A program made the translations under genes and the position numbers. A stretch of 64,000 nucleotides of DNA from a bacterium (GTDB lineage Bacteria; Calditrichota; Calditrichia; RBG-13-44-9; J042), in NCBI GenBank assembly GCA_015485355.1, contig WFTQ01000016.1, forward strand, positions 1 to 64,000, given 5' to 3'. Every line of letters starts with the position of its first letter. Position 1 is the stretch's first letter. This document shows positions 12,252-24,758 of this stretch, one piece after another. The notes below the pieces were generated by a model. That model was given only the letters and a program-made list of their open reading frames with translations, made no database searches and had not been told where the DNA came from.

Positions 12252-12327
12252 CGGAAAGAATCGGTGATGCCGGCCTTTCAAAAGGGTTAAAAGAATCCCT
12301 TTGTTGAGGCAATTCTTCGATGTTCCA

Positions 12328-12356
12328 ACCCGACCGCATCCAGGGTCGGGTTTTTG
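12328..12356 (+). terminator. Rho-independent terminator after Hpt gene
   Basis: acccgacc-gcatccag-ggtcgggt followed by tttttg. Confidence 0.8.
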
Positions 12357-12429: not shown

Positions 12430-12457
12430 TTGAAATTTGTCACAAAATTATTATATT
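12430..12457 (+). promoter_or_regulatory. Candidate sigma70-type promoter for aro leader
   Basis: TTGAAA (12430-12435), 16-nt spacer, TATATT (12452-12457), about 43 nt before the leader ATG. Confidence 0.5.
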
Positions 12458-12499
12458 TATAGGTCAAATTTGAATGTAAAAGGGGTACAAGAGATCGTG

Positions 12500-12565
12500 A
12501 TGGCATCTACTGAGAGGCTCGTGCGTCTTTTTAATTTTTATTTTGGTTATTATTGGACTTGGTAG
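12500..12565 (+). CDS. Aromatic-residue-rich leader peptide MASTERLVRLFNFYFGYYWTW (inner GTG start possible at 12521)
   Basis: ATG GCA TCT ACT GAG AGG CTC GTG CGT CTT TTT AAT TTT TAT TTT GGT TAT TAT TGG ACT TGG TAG read from sequence; 8 of last 11 residues are F/Y/W; immediately upstream of attenuator and aroF. Confidence 0.85.
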   Translation: MASTERLVRLFNFYFGYYWTW

Positions 12566-12638
12566 GTCCCGCCTCTCGGTAGATTGAGTCCATAACATAA
12601 TTTTGAAGCCCCTCTCAATCTACTGAGAGGGGCTTTTC
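12505..12638 (+). promoter_or_regulatory. Ribosome-mediated transcription attenuator (1:2 pause hairpin, 2:3 antiterminator, 3:4 terminator)
   Basis: 12505-12518 pairs with 12571-12584 (14 bp, one G-U); 12572-12588 pairs with 12614-12630 (17 bp, one G-U); competing terminator 12607-12617/12624-12634 (11 bp perfect) then tttt. Confidence 0.88.
12607..12638 (+). terminator. Attenuator terminator hairpin
   Basis: agcccctctca-atctac-tgagaggggct-ttt. Confidence 0.9.
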
Positions 12639-12665
12639 GTTTATAGATAAATTTGGAGGAGAGCC

Positions 12666-13697
12666 ATGGTTATTGTGATGAATCAGCACGCGTCCGAAGA
12701 CGAGATCATGAATGTGATCGAATTTGTTGAAGCATTGGGCGCACGCACCCATTTATCCCGGGGGCAGGAAAAAATAGTTATCGGGGTCATCGGGGATAAG
12801 CGAAATATCCAAAAGGAGCAGATCAAAGTGCTTCCGGGGGTGGAGGATGTTGTTAGTATTCTCAAACCCTACAAGTTGGTGAGTCGGGAGTTTAAGGAGC
12901 AGGATACCGTAATTCGACTGAATGGAGTGGAAATTGGTGGCGGGCAACCGGTGGTGATTGCGGGTCCTTGTTCCGTGGAGAGCGAGGAACAGATCATCCA
13001 GACCGCCCGTTTGGTGAAAGCCCATGGGGCGCAGCTGTTAAGAGGGGGGGCGTTTAAGCCCCGGACCAGTCCTTACAGTTTTCAGGGCCTGGGAGAGGAT
13101 GGATTGAAATTATTGAAAAAAGCCAAAGATGAAACCGGTTTGTACATCGTTACCGAAGTACTGGATGCGATGGATGTTTCCCTGGTGGCCCAATACGCCG
13201 ACATTTTGCAAATTGGTGCCCGTAACATGCAGAATTATAAGCTGTTAAAGGCCGTGGGCAAGATGGACAAACCGGTGTTGCTGAAACGCGGCCTGTCCGC
13301 CACCTTGACCGAATTTTTATTAAGTGCCGAATACATACTGTCTGAAGGCAATCCTAACGTGATTTTATGCGAGCGGGGAATCCGAACGTTTGTGGAATAT
13401 TCTCGCAATACCCTGGATTTGAATATCGTACCCATGATCAAGCGGGTTTCTCATTTGCCTATCTTGGTGGATCCCAGTCATGGCACCGGTCGCCGGGAAC
13501 TGGTCCTCCCTCTTAGTCTGGCGGCCGTCGTCTCGGGTGCCGATGGCTTATTGATCGAAGTCCATCCTCAACCAGAACGTTCCTGGTCCGATGCCGACCA
13601 GACCCTTTCGCCGGATCAGTTTGCCGTGTTAATGAAGCGCCTGGACAGCTTGGTAAAGTGGTTGAGAAATGAAGAATCCGTTATATATACGAATTAA
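12666..13697 (+). CDS. aroF: 3-deoxy-7-phosphoheptulonate synthase (type I beta, N-terminal regulatory domain)
   Basis: '[16 protein letters not shown]', '[24 protein letters not shown]', '[15 protein letters not shown]'; SD ggagga. Confidence 0.97.
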
Positions 13698-14754
13698 ATC
13701 GCAGGAACGACACATCCCGGTGTATGTCGGGAAAGGGCTGGAAAAACAACTGGTTCACTGGCTGAATGAAATCTATCCGCAGCATGCGGTGTTCGCCATC
13801 ATGGACGATCATGTCTATTCCATATATGCCCAGCGCGTACGGGATCATCTGTTGGCCCACCCAGGATTTAAAAAAATCCTGAAATTCCCCGCAGGGGAGT
13901 TTAGCAAGAATCGGCGTACCAAGTCCGTACTGGAGGATCAGCTGTTGTCTGCCCGGGCGGGAAGGGATACGGTATTGCTGGCCATGGGTGGGGGAGTGAC
14001 CGGCGATCTGGCCGGATTTGTAGCCGCCACCCTACACCGTGGAATTCCACTGATCCACGTCCCAACCAGCCTTCTGGCCCAGGTGGATAGCTCCATTGGT
14101 GGAAAGGTGGGCATCAATCACCAGCAGGGCAAAAATTTGATAGGAGCCTTTTATCAACCCGCGGCCGTGTTCTCGGACATCCGATATTTGCGTACCCTTC
14201 CCCGGGATGAATTTATCAACGGCCTGGCGGAAGTGATTAAATATGCTGTGATTTTGGAACCGAGTTTGATCGATTTCCTGGAAAACCATCGGGAACGGAT
14301 TCTGGCCCGAGAAGAAGATACCCTGCTGGAGATCGTCTCCCTTTGTGTGTCTCTGAAGATCCGCGTTGTGGAAAAGGATGAAAAAGAGGCGGGCTATCGT
14401 AGCATTCTGAATTTCGGGCATACCGTGGGACATGCCATAGAGAAGTTAACCGATTATCGCACCAAGCATGGGATGGCTGTTGCCACCGGAATGCGGGTGG
14501 CGTTGAAATTGTCGCACCAATTATTGGGCTATCCCTTCAGTCAGGTGCAGCGCATCTGCCGGCTTCTGGACGGCTTTGAACTCCGGGAGATTCAGGTGCA
14601 TTCCTTACAGTTTCATGAGCTCTGGAACGCAATTTTATCGGATAAAAAAGCCAGGCAACAAACCCCCCGCTTCACCTTGATGCGTTCTCTGAAAGAACCC
14701 GCATTGTTTTACCCCGTAAAACAGGAGGAATTAAAATATGCCGTCGGAGGGTAA
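13669..14754 (+). CDS. aroB: 3-dehydroquinate synthase
   Basis: '[60 protein letters not shown]', '[12 protein letters not shown]'; overlaps aroF by 29 bp. Confidence 0.97.
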
Positions 14755-16234
14755 TCCCTTGTGCCTGAGTCTTCTGCCGACTCGTATCGAGGATCTGGAG
14801 GAGTGGGCTCCCCAAAGCCGGGATGCCGATATGGTGGAGTTAAGACTGGACCGGTTTCCCAATCCCGATTTGAACCGTTTACGGCGTTTGTTTCCCCAAC
14901 CTTTGATTTATACCTGCCGGCTGGTTTCTGAGGGGGGAGGATGGCACGATGCCTCCGAGAAACGTGTCCCCTTATTTCAGGCCGCCATTGATGCAGGATT
15001 CGAATTCATTGATGTGGAATTCGACAGCGTAACCCGCATCCTTCCCCAATTGTCCTTTTCCGGAAAAACGCGACTGATTCTGTCGCACCACACGCAAGAG
15101 GTGGGGTATGCTGCCTTGAACGTTAAACTCCGGCAAATGCTGGAAGTCCCCGCCGAAGTTTACAAACTGATTTACCAGGCCTATCACCTCAACGATAATC
15201 TGATTACTTTAGAACTTATCGATTCCGCCCGGAAAAAAGGTGTGCGTTATCTGATACATGCCATGGGGGAGGAGGGGCGGCTTTCGCGGATTCTGGGGGC
15301 CCTGAAGGGCAATGCCTGGACGTATGTGGCGTTTCGTCCCACAAAGGAAACCGCCAGTGGACAATTAACCTTTCAAAGCGCGCGGTATCATTACTTTTTA
15401 ACCGATAAAACCTCCCCTGCCCGATTGATCGGGTTGGTGGGTTACCCCATTCGGCAAAGCAAGGGCTATCGGTTGCATAATTTACTGTTTCAGCAAAAAC
15501 TCCCGCCGAAGCTGCGAAGAACGTTCCTTTATGTCAATTTTCCGGTAAAAGAGTGGCCGGCGTTCTGGCAGGCCTGGAAGGAACAAGTATATGGATTGAG
15601 CATCACCCTTCCCCACAAAGAGGCGGTCGTGGCCTATCTGGACGAAAAATCTCCAGGGGTACGAATATCCGGTGTTTGCAATACCATGGTCCGTTCCCGG
15701 AACGGATGGAAGGGGCATAATACCGATTTGTTTGCCATCGAGAATTTGTTGAAACCCTACAAACCGCTGCTGAAAGAGGGAGCGGTGATTATCGGCACCG
15801 GAGCCACGGCTCGCAGTGCCATTGCCGCACTGAAGCGCTTAGAAGTATATCCCATTGTGGTAACGGGTAGAAACCTGGAGCGGGGTCAGTGGTTGGCCCG
15901 ATGGTTCGGCATTAACTTTTTAACCTTTTCCGAGGTGCAGGGGATTAGCGCTTCGGTCATTATCCAGACCACACCGGTGGGAATGTTCCCGGAGGTGGAT
16001 CAGGTACCGCCGGGCGTTGAATTATTAAAAAAAGATCGTATTGTGCTGGATGTTATTTACAATCCCCACAAGACCCGGTTTTTACAGATTGCTGAAGAGC
16101 GTGGATGTCGGATCCTCTCCGGTGTGGATATGTTCCTTCTCCAGGCTGCCCGTCAATTCAAATTGTTTACCGGGGAAAGCGTTTCGGTTTCGGAAGTGAA
16201 AGAGGCCTGGGAAAAAATTTCGCTTTTTAATTAA
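14738..16234 (+). CDS. aroDE: Bifunctional type I 3-dehydroquinate dehydratase / shikimate dehydrogenase
   Basis: N-terminal DHQase ('MVELRLDR', 'RLILSHHTQ', 'EVYKLIYQA'), C-terminal SDH ('LSITLPHKEAV', 'GVCNTMV', 'GHNTDLFAIE', 'IIGTGATARSAIAAL'). Confidence 0.95.
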   Translation: MPSEGNPLCLSLLPTRIEDLEEWAPQSRDADMVELRLDRFPNPDLNRLRRLFPQPLIYTCRLVSEGGGWHDASEKRVPLFQAAIDAGFEFIDVEFDSVTRILPQLSFSGKTRLILSHHTQEVGYAALNVKLRQMLEVPAEVYKLIYQAYHLNDNLITLELIDSARKKGVRYLIHAMGEEGRLSRILGALKGNAWTYVAFRPTKETASGQLTFQSARYHYFLTDKTSPARLIGLVGYPIRQSKGYRLHNLLFQQKLPPKLRRTFLYVNFPVKEWPAFWQAWKEQVYGLSITLPHKEAVVAYLDEKSPGVRISGVCNTMVRSRNGWKGHNTDLFAIENLLKPYKPLLKEGAVIIGTGATARSAIAALKRLEVYPIVVTGRNLERGQWLARWFGINFLTFSEVQGISASVIIQTTPVGMFPEVDQVPPGVELLKKDRIVLDVIYNPHKTRFLQIAEERGCRILSGVDMFLLQAARQFKLFTGESVSVSEVKEAWEKISLFN

Positions 16235-16310
16235 GGGCGGATTTCCGATGAAGCATTTTCCGCCCGCCCGATCCTGGTGACCTCCACTATTGAAAGAACG
16301 AGAGGGCGGT

Positions 16311-17609
16311 ATGACGACGATCAACGGTAGATCCATTCCTCCCGGACGCCTGGAAGGTAATATTCGGGTGCCATCTTCCAAAAGCATTACCCATCGTGCG
16401 GCAATTCTGGCGGCCTTGAGTAGGCGGCCGACCCGAATAGCCCATCCCCTCGAGTGCGAAGATACCTTATACACCCTGAAGGCCCTGGAAACGTTGGGAT
16501 ATGAATTTGAGCGCCGGCGGGATGCCTGGGTATTTACCGGAAAATACCAAAGGCCTTCGGCCCCGGTGCATATTTTTGTGGGAAATTCTGGAACCACTGC
16601 ACGTCTGATTACCGCCTTTGCTGCTTTGCAGCCCATAGAATCCACCATCGACGGAACCCCGCGAATGCGCCGGCGACCCATGTCCCCGCTGATCCGGGCT
16701 CTGAAAACGCTGCATATTTCCCTGGACGATACCAACGGGTCATTGCCTCTGCGCATTCGGGGTGGGCGGCCCAAAGGCAACATTGTCGAGGTGGATGCGA
16801 CGACTTCCTCGCAGTATTTATCTGCCCTGATGCTGATCGCCCCCTTTCTTCCCGGAGGATTGACCTTGGTGCCCACCGGCAAGGTGGTCTCTCGAGCCTA
16901 TGTTCGGCTGACCATGGAACTTCTGCATCGAGTGGGCATAGAGGTGTACGAAAATTCTCAGGGGTATCGCATACAGGAAGTCTCCACGCTTAACATGGGT
17001 ACCCTGGATGTAGAAGGAGACGTCTCCAGTGCTTCGTATTTCTTGATTGGTGCGGCCATAAGTGGGGGATGGGTGCAGATTCTCAACGTCGGCACGTCCT
17101 CTATTCAGGGCGACCGGGAAATATTTTCTATTCTGGCGGCGGCGGGTGCACAGGTGGAAGCTGACGGAAACAACGTGCGGGTGGCAGCAAACCCATTGCG
17201 TGCCATCGATTGGGATATGGAAGAATGTCCCGATCTGGTACCCGGGGTGGCCATAATGGCTTTGTTCAGCCGGGGACGGTCCCGGCTCCGGAAGGTGCAG
17301 CACTTGAGGTTCAAAGAATCGGATCGAATTGAGGCAATTATTCAGAATGTCCGCCGTTTGGGTGGCCGGGCTTTGGTGGAGGGCGATGATTTGCTGGTTC
17401 ACAGTGGAGTCCGTAGCGGTGCCTCTATTCATTCGTTTAACGACCACCGAATTGCCATGAGCTTTGCTCTGGCGGGATTACGGCTGCCGGGTGTGGTTAT
17501 TGAACAGCCCGAATGCGTCGCCAAGTCATATCCTGGATTCTGGCAGGATCTCATTCGGTTGCATCGCCCGGTATCGGAAGGGGAGCACCTTCCGAAGGAA
17601 AAGATTTAA
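16311..17609 (+). CDS. aroA: 3-phosphoshikimate 1-carboxyvinyltransferase (EPSP synthase)
   Basis: 'IRVPSSKSITHRAAIL', 'VGNSGTTARLI', 'TPRMRRRPMSPLIRAL', 'LRFKESDRIEAI', 'FNDHRIAMSFALAG'. Confidence 0.96.
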   Translation: MTTINGRSIPPGRLEGNIRVPSSKSITHRAAILAALSRRPTRIAHPLECEDTLYTLKALETLGYEFERRRDAWVFTGKYQRPSAPVHIFVGNSGTTARLITAFAALQPIESTIDGTPRMRRRPMSPLIRALKTLHISLDDTNGSLPLRIRGGRPKGNIVEVDATTSSQYLSALMLIAPFLPGGLTLVPTGKVVSRAYVRLTMELLHRVGIEVYENSQGYRIQEVSTLNMGTLDVEGDVSSASYFLIGAAISGGWVQILNVGTSSIQGDREIFSILAAAGAQVEADGNNVRVAANPLRAIDWDMEECPDLVPGVAIMALFSRGRSRLRKVQHLRFKESDRIEAIIQNVRRLGGRALVEGDDLLVHSGVRSGASIHSFNDHRIAMSFALAGLRLPGVVIEQPECVAKSYPGFWQDLIRLHRPVSEGEHLPKEKI

Positions 17610-17643
17610 GCGGTAACCGCGGCAAGGGACAGAAGGTTTGTCA

Positions 17644-18168
17644 ATGGTTGATACCGCCAACATCGAAAAGGTGGTTTTTATTGGTTTCCGTGGAGCGGGA
17701 AAAACCACCATTGCCCGAACACTGGCGGCGCGGCTGGAATGGGATTATCTTTCCACCGACGATTGGATTCAGGAACAGATTCGGTGTAGCATTTCGCAGT
17801 TTGTAAAGAAGAGAGGGTGGGATGCCTTTCGGACACTGGAGAGACGGGTGATTCAGCAGTTGTCGGAGCGGCGGGAAGTCATTCTGGACTGTGGTGGGGG
17901 TGTGGTGGAAAATCCTGAAAATATGAAACGATTGATTCGGAACGCATTCGTGATATGGGTGGATGCCGATGTTCGGGACATTTTAGCCCGGTTGAAAGAA
18001 AGTGGAGATCGGCCTCTGTTAAATCGGCGGTGTTTGGAGGACGATGTGAGGGTGAATTATCGGCGGCGTCGCCCTTTATATGCCCGTTACGGGCACCTTC
18101 GGGTCGATACTTCCGTCGACCATTTGGAAGCTATTCTGGAAACGATCTTAAAGGCATTGGGGCAATAG
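17644..18168 (+). CDS. aroK: Shikimate kinase
   Basis: Walker A 'FIGFRGAGKTTIA', 'LSTDDWIQ', 'ILDCGGGVV', 'RPLL'. Confidence 0.92.
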   Translation: MVDTANIEKVVFIGFRGAGKTTIARTLAARLEWDYLSTDDWIQEQIRCSISQFVKKRGWDAFRTLERRVIQQLSERREVILDCGGGVVENPENMKRLIRNAFVIWVDADVRDILARLKESGDRPLLNRRCLEDDVRVNYRRRRPLYARYGHLRVDTSVDHLEAILETILKALGQ

Positions 18169-19509
18169 ATGAGTGGTAATGTTTTTGGACAGGCCTTTCG
18201 GGTGATGACTTTTGGGGAGAGTCACGGCCCGTATATTGGGGTGGTAATCGATGGGGTGCGTCCGGGCATTCCCCTTGATGTGGAATGGCTGCAGCGGGAA
18301 CTGGAACGTCGGCGTCCCGGACAGAGTGCCGTTGTTACCCCCCGGCAGGAGAGTGATCGGGTGCAGGTCATTAGTGGCATTTTTGAAGGCAAGACTACCG
18401 GGACTCCAATTTGTTTATTGATTCCCAATCACGATCAACGTTCCCAAGATTATTCCCACATTCAGGCGATATTTCGTCCCGGGCACGCGGGTTTTACTTT
18501 TTTAAAGAAATATGGTGTATTTGATTATCGGGGAGGTGGGCGCGCCAGCGGCCGGGAAACAGCCGCCCGGGTGGCGGCGGGTGCCGTAGCCAAGCAGTTG
18601 TTAGCCGGTCGGGGGATTCGAATCATCGGCTTTACCCGGCAGATCGGGGACGTGGAAATTACGCGGGTGGATCTGGACGCGATCGATAAAAATCCTGTTC
18701 GGGCCCCGGACCTTCAGGCGGCGCAAGCCATGATCGCCGCGATACGAAAGGCGAAAAAGGCCGGCGATTCCCTGGGAGGCGTGGTGGAAATACGGGTTCA
18801 AAATTGCCCTCCGGGACTGGGGGAACCGGTATTTCATAAATTGGAGGCCGACCTGGCGGCGGCATTAATGTCCATCGGCGCCGTTAAAGGCTTCGAAATG
18901 GGAAGTGGGTTTGCTGCCGCCCGTATGAAAGGCAGCGAGCATAACGATTCTTTTGTTCAAGATGAAAACGGCCGCATCCATCTGGCCACCAATCGCGCGG
19001 GAGGGGTTCTGGGAGGCATCAGCACGGGGGATGACTTGATCATGCACATTGCCGTAAAGCCCCCCTCTTCCATTGGGAAGAAACAGCGAACCGTGGATCA
19101 TCAGGGACGACCGGTGGAGTTTCAAATTGGCGGTCGCCATGATCCCTGTATCTGTCCCCGGGTGGTACCCGTCGCCGAGGCCATGGTGGCTTTGGTGCTG
19201 ATCGATCACCTTTTAATGCAGGAACGGTTGCTCCAGAGCAACGAACTGGAAACCTTGCGCCAACAGATTGATACCATAGATACCCAGCTTCTGCTGTTGT
19301 TGGCCCAGCGGAAACGACTGGTGGAGCAGATCGCCCGCATCAAGGCCGATCGGGGAATCGCCGTTCAGGACCGGGCCCGGGAAGATGCGTTGTTACGCCG
19401 GTGGAAGGACTTTTCCCGACAGCTGGACTTATCCGAGTCATTTACCCGGGAACTGGCCGATGTGTTGTTACGCTTTTCCCGTAAGCTGCAGGAGGAATTT
19501 CTATCATGA
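18169..19509 (+). CDS. aroC: Chorismate synthase fused to C-terminal AroQ-type chorismate mutase
   Basis: Chorismate synthase motifs 'GESHGPYIGVVIDGVRPG', 'RRPGQS', 'DYRGGGRASGRETAARVAAGA', 'GGRHDPCICPRVVPVAEAM'; C-terminal 'LRQQIDTIDTQLLLLLAQRKRLVEQIARIKADRGIAVQDRAREDALL...SRKLQ'. Confidence 0.96.
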   Translation: MSGNVFGQAFRVMTFGESHGPYIGVVIDGVRPGIPLDVEWLQRELERRRPGQSAVVTPRQESDRVQVISGIFEGKTTGTPICLLIPNHDQRSQDYSHIQAIFRPGHAGFTFLKKYGVFDYRGGGRASGRETAARVAAGAVAKQLLAGRGIRIIGFTRQIGDVEITRVDLDAIDKNPVRAPDLQAAQAMIAAIRKAKKAGDSLGGVVEIRVQNCPPGLGEPVFHKLEADLAAALMSIGAVKGFEMGSGFAAARMKGSEHNDSFVQDENGRIHLATNRAGGVLGGISTGDDLIMHIAVKPPSSIGKKQRTVDHQGRPVEFQIGGRHDPCICPRVVPVAEAMVALVLIDHLLMQERLLQSNELETLRQQIDTIDTQLLLLLAQRKRLVEQIARIKADRGIAVQDRAREDALLRRWKDFSRQLDLSESFTRELADVLLRFSRKLQEEFLS

Positions 19510-20249
19510 ATCCCCTGGGTATCCTTGGTTTCGGGCGTTTCGGGCAGTTACTCTACAAGCATCTGAAAAACCGGGTGGACCTTGCCGTTTACGATCCCTA
19601 TCAGCGTTATCAACGCAAATTTTCCCGGGTTCCCTTTGTTGAGCTTTCCCGGATAGCCCGAATGCCCCATTTAATCTTGGCGGTGCCTGTAGCCGCCATC
19701 GAAGAAGTAGCCCGAAAATTAAACCCGCATATTCGATCCGATGCCCTGGTAATGGATGTGTGTGCCGTCAAAACCTATCCCCTTCAGGTGCTGGAAAAGG
19801 AATTGCCTTCAACCGTGGAGATCGTGGGCAGTCATCCCCTGTTTGGGCCGGACTCCGCCGCCGATTCCTTTCGCAATCATATTTTGATTCTGAGTCCTGT
19901 GAGAATTGCGGCGCCGCGATTCCAAATGGTGCGGAGGTTCTGGCAGGCCCTCGGTGTGCAAATTGTGGAAATGACCCCTGCAGAGCAGGATCGGTTGATG
20001 GCCTGGAGCCTGGCCCTGACGCATTTTCTGGGACGCGCCCTTACCCGCTTGCCCTTACCGGAAACCCCCGTCTCCACCCGGGACTATCAAAATCTGTTGA
20101 AACTGGTGGCGAAAATCAATCGGGACACGGTGGAATTGTTCCAGGATATGCATCGCTTTAATCCATATACCCGGGAAATGCGGGAGGTGCTGTACAAATC
20201 CATTGCCGATTTAAAGTCCGAACTGGACAGTATTCAAAAGGTGGAATGA
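19506..20249 (+). CDS. tyrA: Prephenate/arogenate dehydrogenase, copy 1
   Basis: 'LGILGFGRFGQLLYKHL' Rossmann, 'DVCAVKTYP', 'VGSHPLFGP'; ATGA overlap with aroC. Confidence 0.88.
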   Translation: MNPLGILGFGRFGQLLYKHLKNRVDLAVYDPYQRYQRKFSRVPFVELSRIARMPHLILAVPVAAIEEVARKLNPHIRSDALVMDVCAVKTYPLQVLEKELPSTVEIVGSHPLFGPDSAADSFRNHILILSPVRIAAPRFQMVRRFWQALGVQIVEMTPAEQDRLMAWSLALTHFLGRALTRLPLPETPVSTRDYQNLLKLVAKINRDTVELFQDMHRFNPYTREMREVLYKSIADLKSELDSIQKVE

Positions 20250-20410
20250 GCTCTGCTTCAACCGGGAAAGAATGCCTGCAGGCAATCGCATCATCAGGGG
20301 TTTGACGATCGGCATCACCGGAAATACCGATGCTGAAATACTTTGTCCATAGGGCCGATTGAAACGAGGCATGATGTCGGTGGATTTAGAGTAAATCGGG
20401 GAAACGGCGA

Positions 20411-21295
20411 GTGACTTATTGGGGAGAGATTGCAGCCCTGGGAACGGCCATCTGTTGGTCTTTTTCGGCGGTCTTTTTTACCATCGCCAGTAGAAGAGTT
20501 GGGGCATTAACCATCAACCTGTTTCGTCTTCCGCTGGCCATCTTCTTGTTGTGGGGAACCTACCTGATATCGGGCGGCGATTTTTCCATTCCGAGGGAAG
20601 CCTTATTTTACCTGGCCATGAGCGGTGTGTTGGGGTTGGCCATCGGAGATACGTTTTTATTCTACTCCATGGTACGGGTAGGTTCTCGCATAAGCATGTT
20701 GTTGCTGTCTTTGGCTCCCCCCATTACGGCGCTGTTAGCGTTTATGGTATTGGGCGAGGTTCTTTCCCCGAAGGAAATTCTGGGTATTGCCCTGGCGATT
20801 TTAGGGGTCTCCTGGGTGGTTCTGGAACAAAACGACGCCCCCCGGGCACAAAGGCGATCGTTTCTAAAGGGAGTGCTTTTGGGAGTACTATCGGCTTTTA
20901 CCCAGGCTCTCAATTTGATTTTTGCTAAGAAGGCGCTGGTAATGGATGTCGATCCCCTCTACGGTACGCTGATCCGGATGCTGAGTGCCGCCCTGATACT
21001 GTGGCCGACAAGTTTCCTGTTGCGAAAAATTAAAAATCCGCTTAAAATGTTAAAGGCCGATATAACGGCGATAAAGTATTTGCTCTCGGGGGTTGCCATG
21101 GGACCTTACCTGGGCGTGTGGCTTTCGCTGGTGGCCGTCAAATTTACTCATACGGGGGTAGCCGCAACGATCATGTCCATTGTTCCGGTAACGATGATCC
21201 CCATCTCCATTCGATTTGAAAAGGAAACGCCTTCCATTCGCTCGGTGATTGGTGCCGTTATTACCGTGGTGGGAATTGCCTTTTTGTTCCTGTAG
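20411..21295 (+). CDS. EamA/DMT family permease
   Basis: Ten predicted hydrophobic segments with duplicated EamA pattern; 'ICWSFSAVFFTIASRRVGALTINLFRLPLA'; GTG start. Confidence 0.88.
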   Translation: MTYWGEIAALGTAICWSFSAVFFTIASRRVGALTINLFRLPLAIFLLWGTYLISGGDFSIPREALFYLAMSGVLGLAIGDTFLFYSMVRVGSRISMLLLSLAPPITALLAFMVLGEVLSPKEILGIALAILGVSWVVLEQNDAPRAQRRSFLKGVLLGVLSAFTQALNLIFAKKALVMDVDPLYGTLIRMLSAALILWPTSFLLRKIKNPLKMLKADITAIKYLLSGVAMGPYLGVWLSLVAVKFTHTGVAATIMSIVPVTMIPISIRFEKETPSIRSVIGAVITVVGIAFLFL

Positions 21296-21465
21296 CAATC
21301 TCGGATGTTTGCTTCCGGTTCCAGTAGAATCCAAAGACGATTCCCGCAAGGCTCTCGATCAACAGCCGGTATGTCCGGTATTCGGCCATGCAGCTTAGGG
21401 GGGATGGATGTTTTCCATGGACCGGCCAAGATGCTTTCCTTTGTCACTTAACGAGGAGGGATAAA

Positions 21466-22200
21466 ATGGAGGCTCTGGGTATCATCGGATTCGGCCGTTT
21501 TGGGCAATTATTATATCAGTTTTTGTTTCGAAAATATCATGTAGTCCTTTACGATCCTCACCAGCAGTATCGCCCCGAGTTTGAGAATTATCCTTTCGGC
21601 AGCCTGGAAGAGGTATGCTACAATCCGCTGGTGATTATTGCGACTCCTATTTCGGCTTTGGATCGCCTGGTGCGCAACATCGCCAGATGGTTAAAACCCG
21701 AAACCGTTGTAATGGATGTTTGTTCTGTGAAAAATTATCCCTTGAACCTGTTATTAAACTTCTTGCCCGAAGAGGTGGAAATTGTAGGCAGTCATCCTTT
21801 GTTTGGACCCGAATCTGTAAAAAAGAGTTTGAAAGGGCATTATGTGGTATTGATCCCCGCCCGAATTTCTTCCCGGAGGTATGAACAAATGAAGAGGTTC
21901 TGGAAGGAGCTGGGTGTTCGGCTTGTGGAGATGGAGGCCATTGAGCACGATCGTATTATGGCCTGGACCCTGGCGTTAACCCACTTTTTAGGACGAGGTC
22001 TGAAGCGGCTGGAATTGCCCGGCACACGGGTGGCTACGCGGGATTTTCGGATTCTAAGCCATTTGATCGACAGGGTCAATCGGGATACTATCCAACTGTT
22101 TCAAGATATGCATCGCTTTAATCCCCATACCCGTAAGATGCGCAAAGCGGTTTTGAAACAATTTCGGGAGTTGGATAAGGCGTTGGATCAGCTGAGTTGA
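21466..22200 (+). CDS. tyrA: Prephenate/arogenate dehydrogenase, copy 2
   Basis: 'LGIIGFGRFGQLLYQFL', 'DVCSVKNYP', 'VGSHPLFGPESVKKSLKG'; strong similarity along full length to copy 1; SD gaggaggg before ATG 21466. Confidence 0.88.
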   Translation: MEALGIIGFGRFGQLLYQFLFRKYHVVLYDPHQQYRPEFENYPFGSLEEVCYNPLVIIATPISALDRLVRNIARWLKPETVVMDVCSVKNYPLNLLLNFLPEEVEIVGSHPLFGPESVKKSLKGHYVVLIPARISSRRYEQMKRFWKELGVRLVEMEAIEHDRIMAWTLALTHFLGRGLKRLELPGTRVATRDFRILSHLIDRVNRDTIQLFQDMHRFNPHTRKMRKAVLKQFRELDKALDQLS

Positions 22201-23723: not shown

Positions 23724-24758
23724 ATGAAAAACAATTCCGTACGCACATCACCGAGGAAGACCGACACCACCGTGGATGAGAAACAACATCCTCCTACTCA
23801 ACCGCTCTCCAATATCGCCATAGTGGGGCTCAATCGGATTGGGTGGAACATTTATAAAAATCCCGGTCGTTTTATTCGTCCGAATCAGCAGATCGTGGGT
23901 TTTATCAATGTGTATCCCCTGGAGGATTCCGATAGTCACTGGACCTCGCTGCTCAATTTGCTGGGCGATTTCAGCGAGTTTTCCCGAATCATTCAAAAGC
24001 ACGATATCTCCAGAGTTATTGTGGCCCTCGATCCTCATGATGTTCAAAAAATCCATGAGGTTCTACAGGCCTGCCAGCAACACGGGGTTCAGTACGATCT
24101 GGTTTCGGACCTCTACGACGTTGTCTACGGAAATACCTTCAAAGAGATATTAAAGGATATTTCTCAACCTTTTGAATTCTCCATTCGTCGCGTGTTGGAC
24201 CTGTTTTTTTCCATCCTTTTATTTCTACTATTTTTACCCTCCTGGATTGTGATCGCCATGGCCATCAAATTCGACTCGCCCGGAACGGTGCTTTACTCCC
24301 AGGAACGGGTGGGTAAAAACGGACGCATCTTTCGCATCTTCAAATTCCGGAGCATGCGGGCCGATGCAGAAAAGTATTCCGGACCGCAACTGGCCACTCA
24401 GAACGATCCCCGAATTACCCGCGTGGGACGGATATTGCGTAAAACCCGCCTGGATGAATTGCCCCAACTCATTAACGTCATCGTGGGAGACATGAGTTTT
24501 ATCGGTCCCCGGCCGGAACGACCCTATTTCGTCGAAAAATATCGCCGGGAAATCCCCTTTTATGTCAATCGGCTGAAAGTGAAACCCGGTTTGACCGGAT
24601 TGGCCCAGGTGGAGACCGGCTATGATGAATCCATTGAAGATGTCCGCCAAAAATTAAAATATGACCTCTATTACATTGAACACTACAATTCTGTTGCCCT
24701 GAATCTAAAAATTCTCTTCAAAACCATCTGGGTGGTTCTGACCGCACAGGGACAATAA
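23724..24758 (+). CDS. Exopolysaccharide polyprenyl glycosylphosphotransferase (initiating sugar transferase)
   Basis: '[20 protein letters not shown]', '[38 protein letters not shown]', '[10 protein letters not shown]'. Confidence 0.95.

Follow-up and report, generated by a model that had tools for sequence, protein, structure and literature searches.

The shikimate operon within the window, the 64,000 nt stretch of Calditrichota DNA analysed here (contig WFTQ01000016.1, positions 1 to 64,000), is very probably controlled by a ribosome-mediated transcription attenuator. This reading, first proposed in an earlier note on the same DNA, is well supported because of the conservation of the locus in relatives, compensatory base changes in the paired RNA and folding with ribosome masking. 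All features lie on the forward strand, in the order upstream-gene terminator, promoter-like site, leader ORF, attenuator terminator and aroF, which begins at 12666. A terminator scan placed the intrinsic terminator of the upstream gene at 12327..12352, isolating the leader transcription unit. The promoter-like site is a sigma-70-like TTGAAA-16-TATATT (12430..12457; 10/12 matches), and identical hexamers and spacing are present in a same-genus relative (L013).

The putative leader peptide, MASTERLVRLFNFYFGYYWTW, is encoded by a 21-codon ORF at 12500..12565 (TAG included), recognized from the sequence and from orthologous leaders; an alternative in-frame GTG start is possible at 12497. As read from the sequence, the control codons are F11, F13, Y14, F15, Y17, Y18, W19 and W21 (12530..12562), so that the last 11 codons hold three Phe, three Tyr and two Trp codons. 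An equally aromatic short ORF arose in 0/5000 dinucleotide shuffles, and the aromatic leader that had been described ahead of the operon is thus present beyond chance. Apart from the leader, the window has a single short frame as rich in aromatic codons, at 24172; it lies within a sugar-transferase coding region and was rejected as chance.

Downstream of the leader, the first gene of the operon is aroF (12666..13697), encoding 3-deoxy-7-phosphoheptulonate (DAHP) synthase (NCBIfam NF006421, TIGR01361). It is followed by aroB, 3-dehydroquinate synthase (13669..14754; TIGR01357), an aroD-aroE fusion encoding dehydroquinate dehydratase/shikimate dehydrogenase (14738..16234; TIGR01093 and TIGR00507, both below cut-offs), aroA, EPSP synthase (16308..17609; TIGR01356), aroK, shikimate kinase (17638..18168), aroC fused to a chorismate mutase (CM) domain (18169..19509; TIGR00033 and CM models) and tyrA, prephenate dehydrogenase (19506..20249). 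As these genes mostly overlap or nearly touch, aroF to tyrA probably form one operon. The window DAHP synthase is 95% identical to the copy in a same-genus Calditrichota MAG (JAADJD010000012). A DMT-family transporter gene and a second tyrA-like gene come after tyrA; the transporter, whose YddG-like match is weak, stands between two tyrA-like prephenate dehydrogenase genes (19506-22200), an arrangement also kept in G002 and G003.

Between the leader ORF and aroF stands an intrinsic terminator (12607..12634), a hairpin whose 11 bp arms (12607-12617/12624-12634) contain no mismatch, with a 6 nt loop and TTTCGTTT behind it. Two further helices share one partner and are therefore mutually exclusive. 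The protector, segment 1 (12505..12518, within leader codons 2-7), forms a 14 bp helix with 12571-12584 that includes one G-U, and segment 2 (12571..12588) can instead pair through 12572-12588 with segment 3 (12614..12630) over 17 bp, again with one G-U (12578:12624). Segment 3 consists of the last 4 nt of the terminator ascending arm, the loop and 7 nt of the descending arm. The word ATCTACTGAGAGG occurs within the window only at 12505 and 12618, which bears out the earlier observation that segment 1 and the terminator region have a word in common, and the coordinates previously given for all three pairings proved exact on recheck. A 13 nt direct repeat appeared in 2/5000 dinucleotide shuffles, and as many 10 nt inverted repeats in 1/2000.

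The arrangement had been likened to a mirror of the Escherichia coli trp leader, and the comparison holds for the overall logic: as in trpL, a leader ORF, a 1:2 protector, a 2:3 antiterminator and a terminator are present, and the stop codon lies just ahead of segment 2 (5 nt separate the end of the leader stop from it). The comparison does not hold for the placement of the parts. In trpL, segment 1 contains the control codons and segment 3 forms the ascending arm of the terminator, whereas here the control codons occupy the loop that separates segment 1 from segment 2, and the antiterminator engages mainly the terminator loop and descending arm rather than the ascending arm. The strict trp geometry, with segment 3 as the ascending arm, is thus absent from the window, and the leader codes for three aromatic amino acids rather than the one of trpL.

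Folding of the free window RNA gave the 1:2 helix together with the terminator. When everything up to 15 nt past the P site was masked, the antiterminator formed for ribosomes at codons 15-21 and the terminator returned for a ribosome at the stop codon. With the G002 leader the antiterminator formed from codon 1 onwards, until the ribosome had all but reached the stop, and in G003 the switch went off exactly once the final aromatic codon had been passed. Where the ribosome stalls at the earliest aromatic codons of the window, the terminator is the equilibrium winner at full length, but the antiterminator forms first during elongation; in folds of the growing chain it nucleates at the loop before the descending arm exists, and then displaces that arm. 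The equilibrium fold favours the terminator in G037, G038 and G040. In shuffled leaders that kept the terminator, loss of the terminator on stalling only was seen in 0, 2, 1 and 0 of 1000 for the window, G002, G003 and G039, respectively. Folding with and without ribosome masking had been suggested as a check, and provided that the RNA behind the ribosome is unavailable, the terminator was lost only for a stall at aromatic codons. With a bare 29 nt footprint mask (codon labels off by one base), the 1:2 helix re-closed behind a late-block stall and the terminator returned, so the model needs steric exclusion in the 52 nt loop or a following ribosome on segment 1; we infer that one of these keeps segment 1 unavailable behind the stalled ribosome.

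These structures are consistent with a mechanism in which three states of translation would set the outcome. According to the computed folds, without translation segments 1 and 2 would pair, the terminator would form and transcription would stop near 12635-12642. With an ample supply of charged aromatic tRNAs, the ribosome would reach the stop codon and mask the 5' portion of segment 2, again allowing the terminator to form. If an aromatic tRNA runs short, the ribosome would stall in the F/Y/W block and make segment 1 unavailable, and the freed segment 2 is predicted to zip onto the terminator loop and descending arm during their transcription. The presumed consequence is antitermination, with RNA polymerase reading through into aroF-tyrA. 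The signal would most securely be charged tRNA-Phe and tRNA-Tyr, and possibly tRNA-Trp.

Conservation of the locus was assessed across the phylum, in which a related DAHP synthase is encoded in 41/41 genomes examined. F/Y/W-rich leaders of differing sequence, each with a terminator, stand at the equivalent position in six relatives from the window's order (G002, VMASTERLNHFFGFYFGYYYWTQ; G003, MVQSIEKQWSLTNVFYFYYYWGFYVSASQ; G037, MRMVCKMVYFEFQLYYFYYFP; G038, MKSLKNTFYYYGYYYYFGGWCSDSQ; G039, MKSFESREYYQTFDYYGFYFYGGSNSRLSID; G040, MKTNVNKIYYFSYYFYQRGYSINLP), and within the order they precede the long form of DAHP synthase; in G001 the leader is unreadable as the contig ends at the terminator. The aromatic leader of each relative was equalled in only 0-2/2000 shuffles. 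The peptides vary in sequence and length with the aromatic runs kept, and the aromatic blocks of the window and G002 are one codon indel apart. Outside family f1 the operon content differs (aroF-aroA-aroC/CM-tyrA-pheA in G038 and G040), yet the leader still precedes aroF. The hairpin core CTCTCAATCTNNNGAGAG has one mismatch-free copy per genome, always at this locus (n=7 genomes), and the same three-way pairing as in the window is found in four relatives. No aromatic leader is present in family f4 of the same class, where aroF directly follows another gene, and none was seen in the 330 nt viewed at the second DAHP synthase/pheA locus of the window's own genome. In G029 (L066), the attenuator terminator (CCCCTCTCAATCTGTTGAGAGGGG) persists ahead of a DAHP synthase match starting at query residue 71, and no aromatic leader ORF was found there; it is possible that this locus represents decay of the switch.

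Five homologous leaders were aligned to examine covariation. Pairing in helix 1:2 reaches 90%, with three two-sided compensatory changes (12510:12579, 12516:12573 and 12517:12572), slid versions of the helix all falling to 37-43%; in G003 this helix is extended outwards. For helix 2:3 the figure is 94% (31-47% when slid), with a single two-sided change, from G-C to A-U at 12579:12623. Because 12623 is a terminator-loop base free of terminator pairing, this change speaks specifically for the antiterminator. Helix 2:3 alone did not beat the shuffle control on covariation (101/500); most of its positions are invariant because one sequence serves segment 1, segment 2 and the terminator, and this invariance weakens the statistics for 2:3 taken by itself. 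A duplex calculation indicated a trpL-like topology for G037, in which segment 2 pairs with the ascending arm or the flank 5' of it, and the same topology was read by eye in G040. The search for covariation and conserved F/Y/W codons in relatives, also proposed earlier as a check, therefore recovered leaders, pairing and compensatory changes alike.

The rival with the strongest claim keeps the attenuator and narrows its signal: in practice the switch may answer to Phe and/or Tyr alone, with the Trp codons incidental or minor. We regard this as a serious contender that falls a little short of an even chance. The leaders of G037, G039 and G040 contain no Trp codon, and a ribosome stalled at W21, so near to the stop codon, is already in contact with segment 2, although a fold with a stall at W19 or W21 still yields the antiterminator. 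A separate WWWW leader (MKQFLFKYTPKKSWWWWTLTLSGWRR), followed by a terminator, precedes trpE in the window's genome (L099:9-89, contig C55), so that Trp has a leader of its own. A precedent is provided by the aroR leader of Corynebacterium glutamicum, located before aroF, which encodes Phe-Tyr-Phe and is reported to respond to Phe but not to Tyr (Neshat et al. 2014, as described in PMC11802643). Against this, the three readable f1 leaders, which come from genomes with trp genes, each carry one or two Trp codons, whereas in G037-G040 neither trpE nor a trpA above the cut-off was found and a Trp codon occurs in G038 only. This correspondence of Trp codons with trp genes, to which G038 is the exception and in which several of the genomes are incomplete, suggests that Trp may be sensed. 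The earlier note had one peptide sensing Phe, Tyr and Trp: codons for all three are indeed present, some orthologues lack the Trp codons, and the sensing itself is a reading of codons.

Leaders elsewhere in the phylum have codons that match the products of the pathway they precede, as seen at trpE and pheA. G002 and G003 also have WWWW leaders ahead of trpE, two genomes of the sister family f2 have WWW leaders there, and in f2 pheA is preceded by aromatic leaders such as MLNIFAGFYFYFYFWFIKPEPARVN. These leaders of the order come with a terminator, those with WWWW or WWW codons before trpE at L099, L097, L098, L094 and L096, and the f2 aromatic ones before pheA at L091, L090, L087 and L089; few aromatic codons remain in the pheA leaders of G030 and G031 (L088, L085). 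We tentatively offer a fuller version of the attenuator, which taken whole we consider possible but rather doubtful. The switch would be trivalent, answering to three aromatic tRNAs through one peptide; the loop would act as a toehold from which the descending arm is stripped; the choice of codons would track what the host can synthesize, Trp codons having been lost with the trp genes; and the topology would have been rewired between families while the leader was retained.

The other rivals dispense with attenuation at the intrinsic terminator. That the leader acts mainly on aroF translation or via Rho is improbable: the U-tract of the window terminator is imperfect, being interrupted (TTTTCGTTT), but a G+C-rich hairpin with a T-tract is found in 7/7 readable leaders, ends about 31-36 nt upstream of aroF and leaves the aroF ribosome-binding site uncovered. 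Control by a T-box or another riboswitch, with the ORF incidental, is still less probable. Aromatic genes of Firmicutes are under T-boxes (PMC1262725, citing others), but within the window no Rfam family scored at its gathering threshold, T-box and amino-acid leaders included, and among relatives the aromatic ORF is kept, unlike the RNA between the paired segments. Finally, a chance ORF in an A+T-rich spacer before an ordinary terminator and a constitutive operon is hardly credible, as TTT and TAT codons arise easily in T-rich DNA but the shuffles and the conservation of the leader and three-way pairing in other genera contradict it.

Classic leaders had been said usually to sense one or two amino acids, yet mixed-specificity leaders are not unprecedented. 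The enterobacterial ilvGMEDA leader is multivalent, its codons covering several end products made by a common pathway; it resembles the attenuator described here in that one leader serves several end products, and differs in that these are branched-chain rather than aromatic amino acids. Across the literature, the nearest functional relative that we found is aroR of C. glutamicum, a member of a different phylum (the leader is also noted in PMC4046766). Both are aromatic leaders directly upstream of a DAHP synthase gene and attributed to ribosome-mediated attenuation, but aroR has Phe-Tyr-Phe only, compared here with eight F/Y/W codons ahead of an entire shikimate operon, and the likeness is drawn from codons and position. 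The pheL and pheST leaders of E. coli likewise use aromatic codons for transcription attenuation of an aromatic-related operon (PMC11802643), but they carry Phe codons only and govern pheA or the synthetase instead of the common pathway.

For a long time, records of leader-peptide attenuation came mainly from Proteobacteria and Actinobacteria, with Firmicutes added later (PMC2965389, 2010). No description of such a leader in Calditrichota was found in the open literature, closed journals lying outside the scope of the search. The type of switch is known; the Calditrichota example is new, and the mechanism is not. Two traits are unusual, namely mixed F/Y/W codons for the common pathway and an antiterminator on the loop and descending arm, and these would make it a variant if confirmed experimentally. 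The Calditrichota set, with Trp leaders at trpE, mixed F/Y/W leaders at the shikimate operon and F/Y leaders at pheA in the sister family, represents a natural series for studying how one peptide integrates several tRNA signals. It also lends itself to asking how the logic of an RNA switch persists as the pairing partners are exchanged.

Similar short ORFs were seen outside the phylum. MAGs of the archaeal Candidatus Micrarchaeota carry short F/Y/W-rich ORFs ahead of DAHP synthase (MTEVKANQQNWSFGFSFGYFG, MNQARLNRTYRAFWFSFGYFG, MNQRKNQWSYPTFGFSFGYYQ, MAGTEARWNFGYSFSFGY), at loci L135/L033 (G041), L143 (G048), L137 (G049), L138 (G050) and possibly L139 (G044), each equalled in 0-4/2000 shuffles. 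In at least two cases the aromatic ORF directly follows a trpA-like gene, and a long hairpin, for example GGGAAAAACCC/GGGTTTTTCCC, lies downstream of some of them. These ORFs are candidates for archaeal leader-peptide control, which, if true, would be more surprising than the Calditrichota attenuator. A Phe-rich short ORF (MKLTNTILKSSKLNNYFFSFFLGFFSAGFFTYKNRICNNNKLNSNFI) followed by a terminator was also observed upstream of DAHP synthase in a Eubacteriales MAG (L027:2758-2901).
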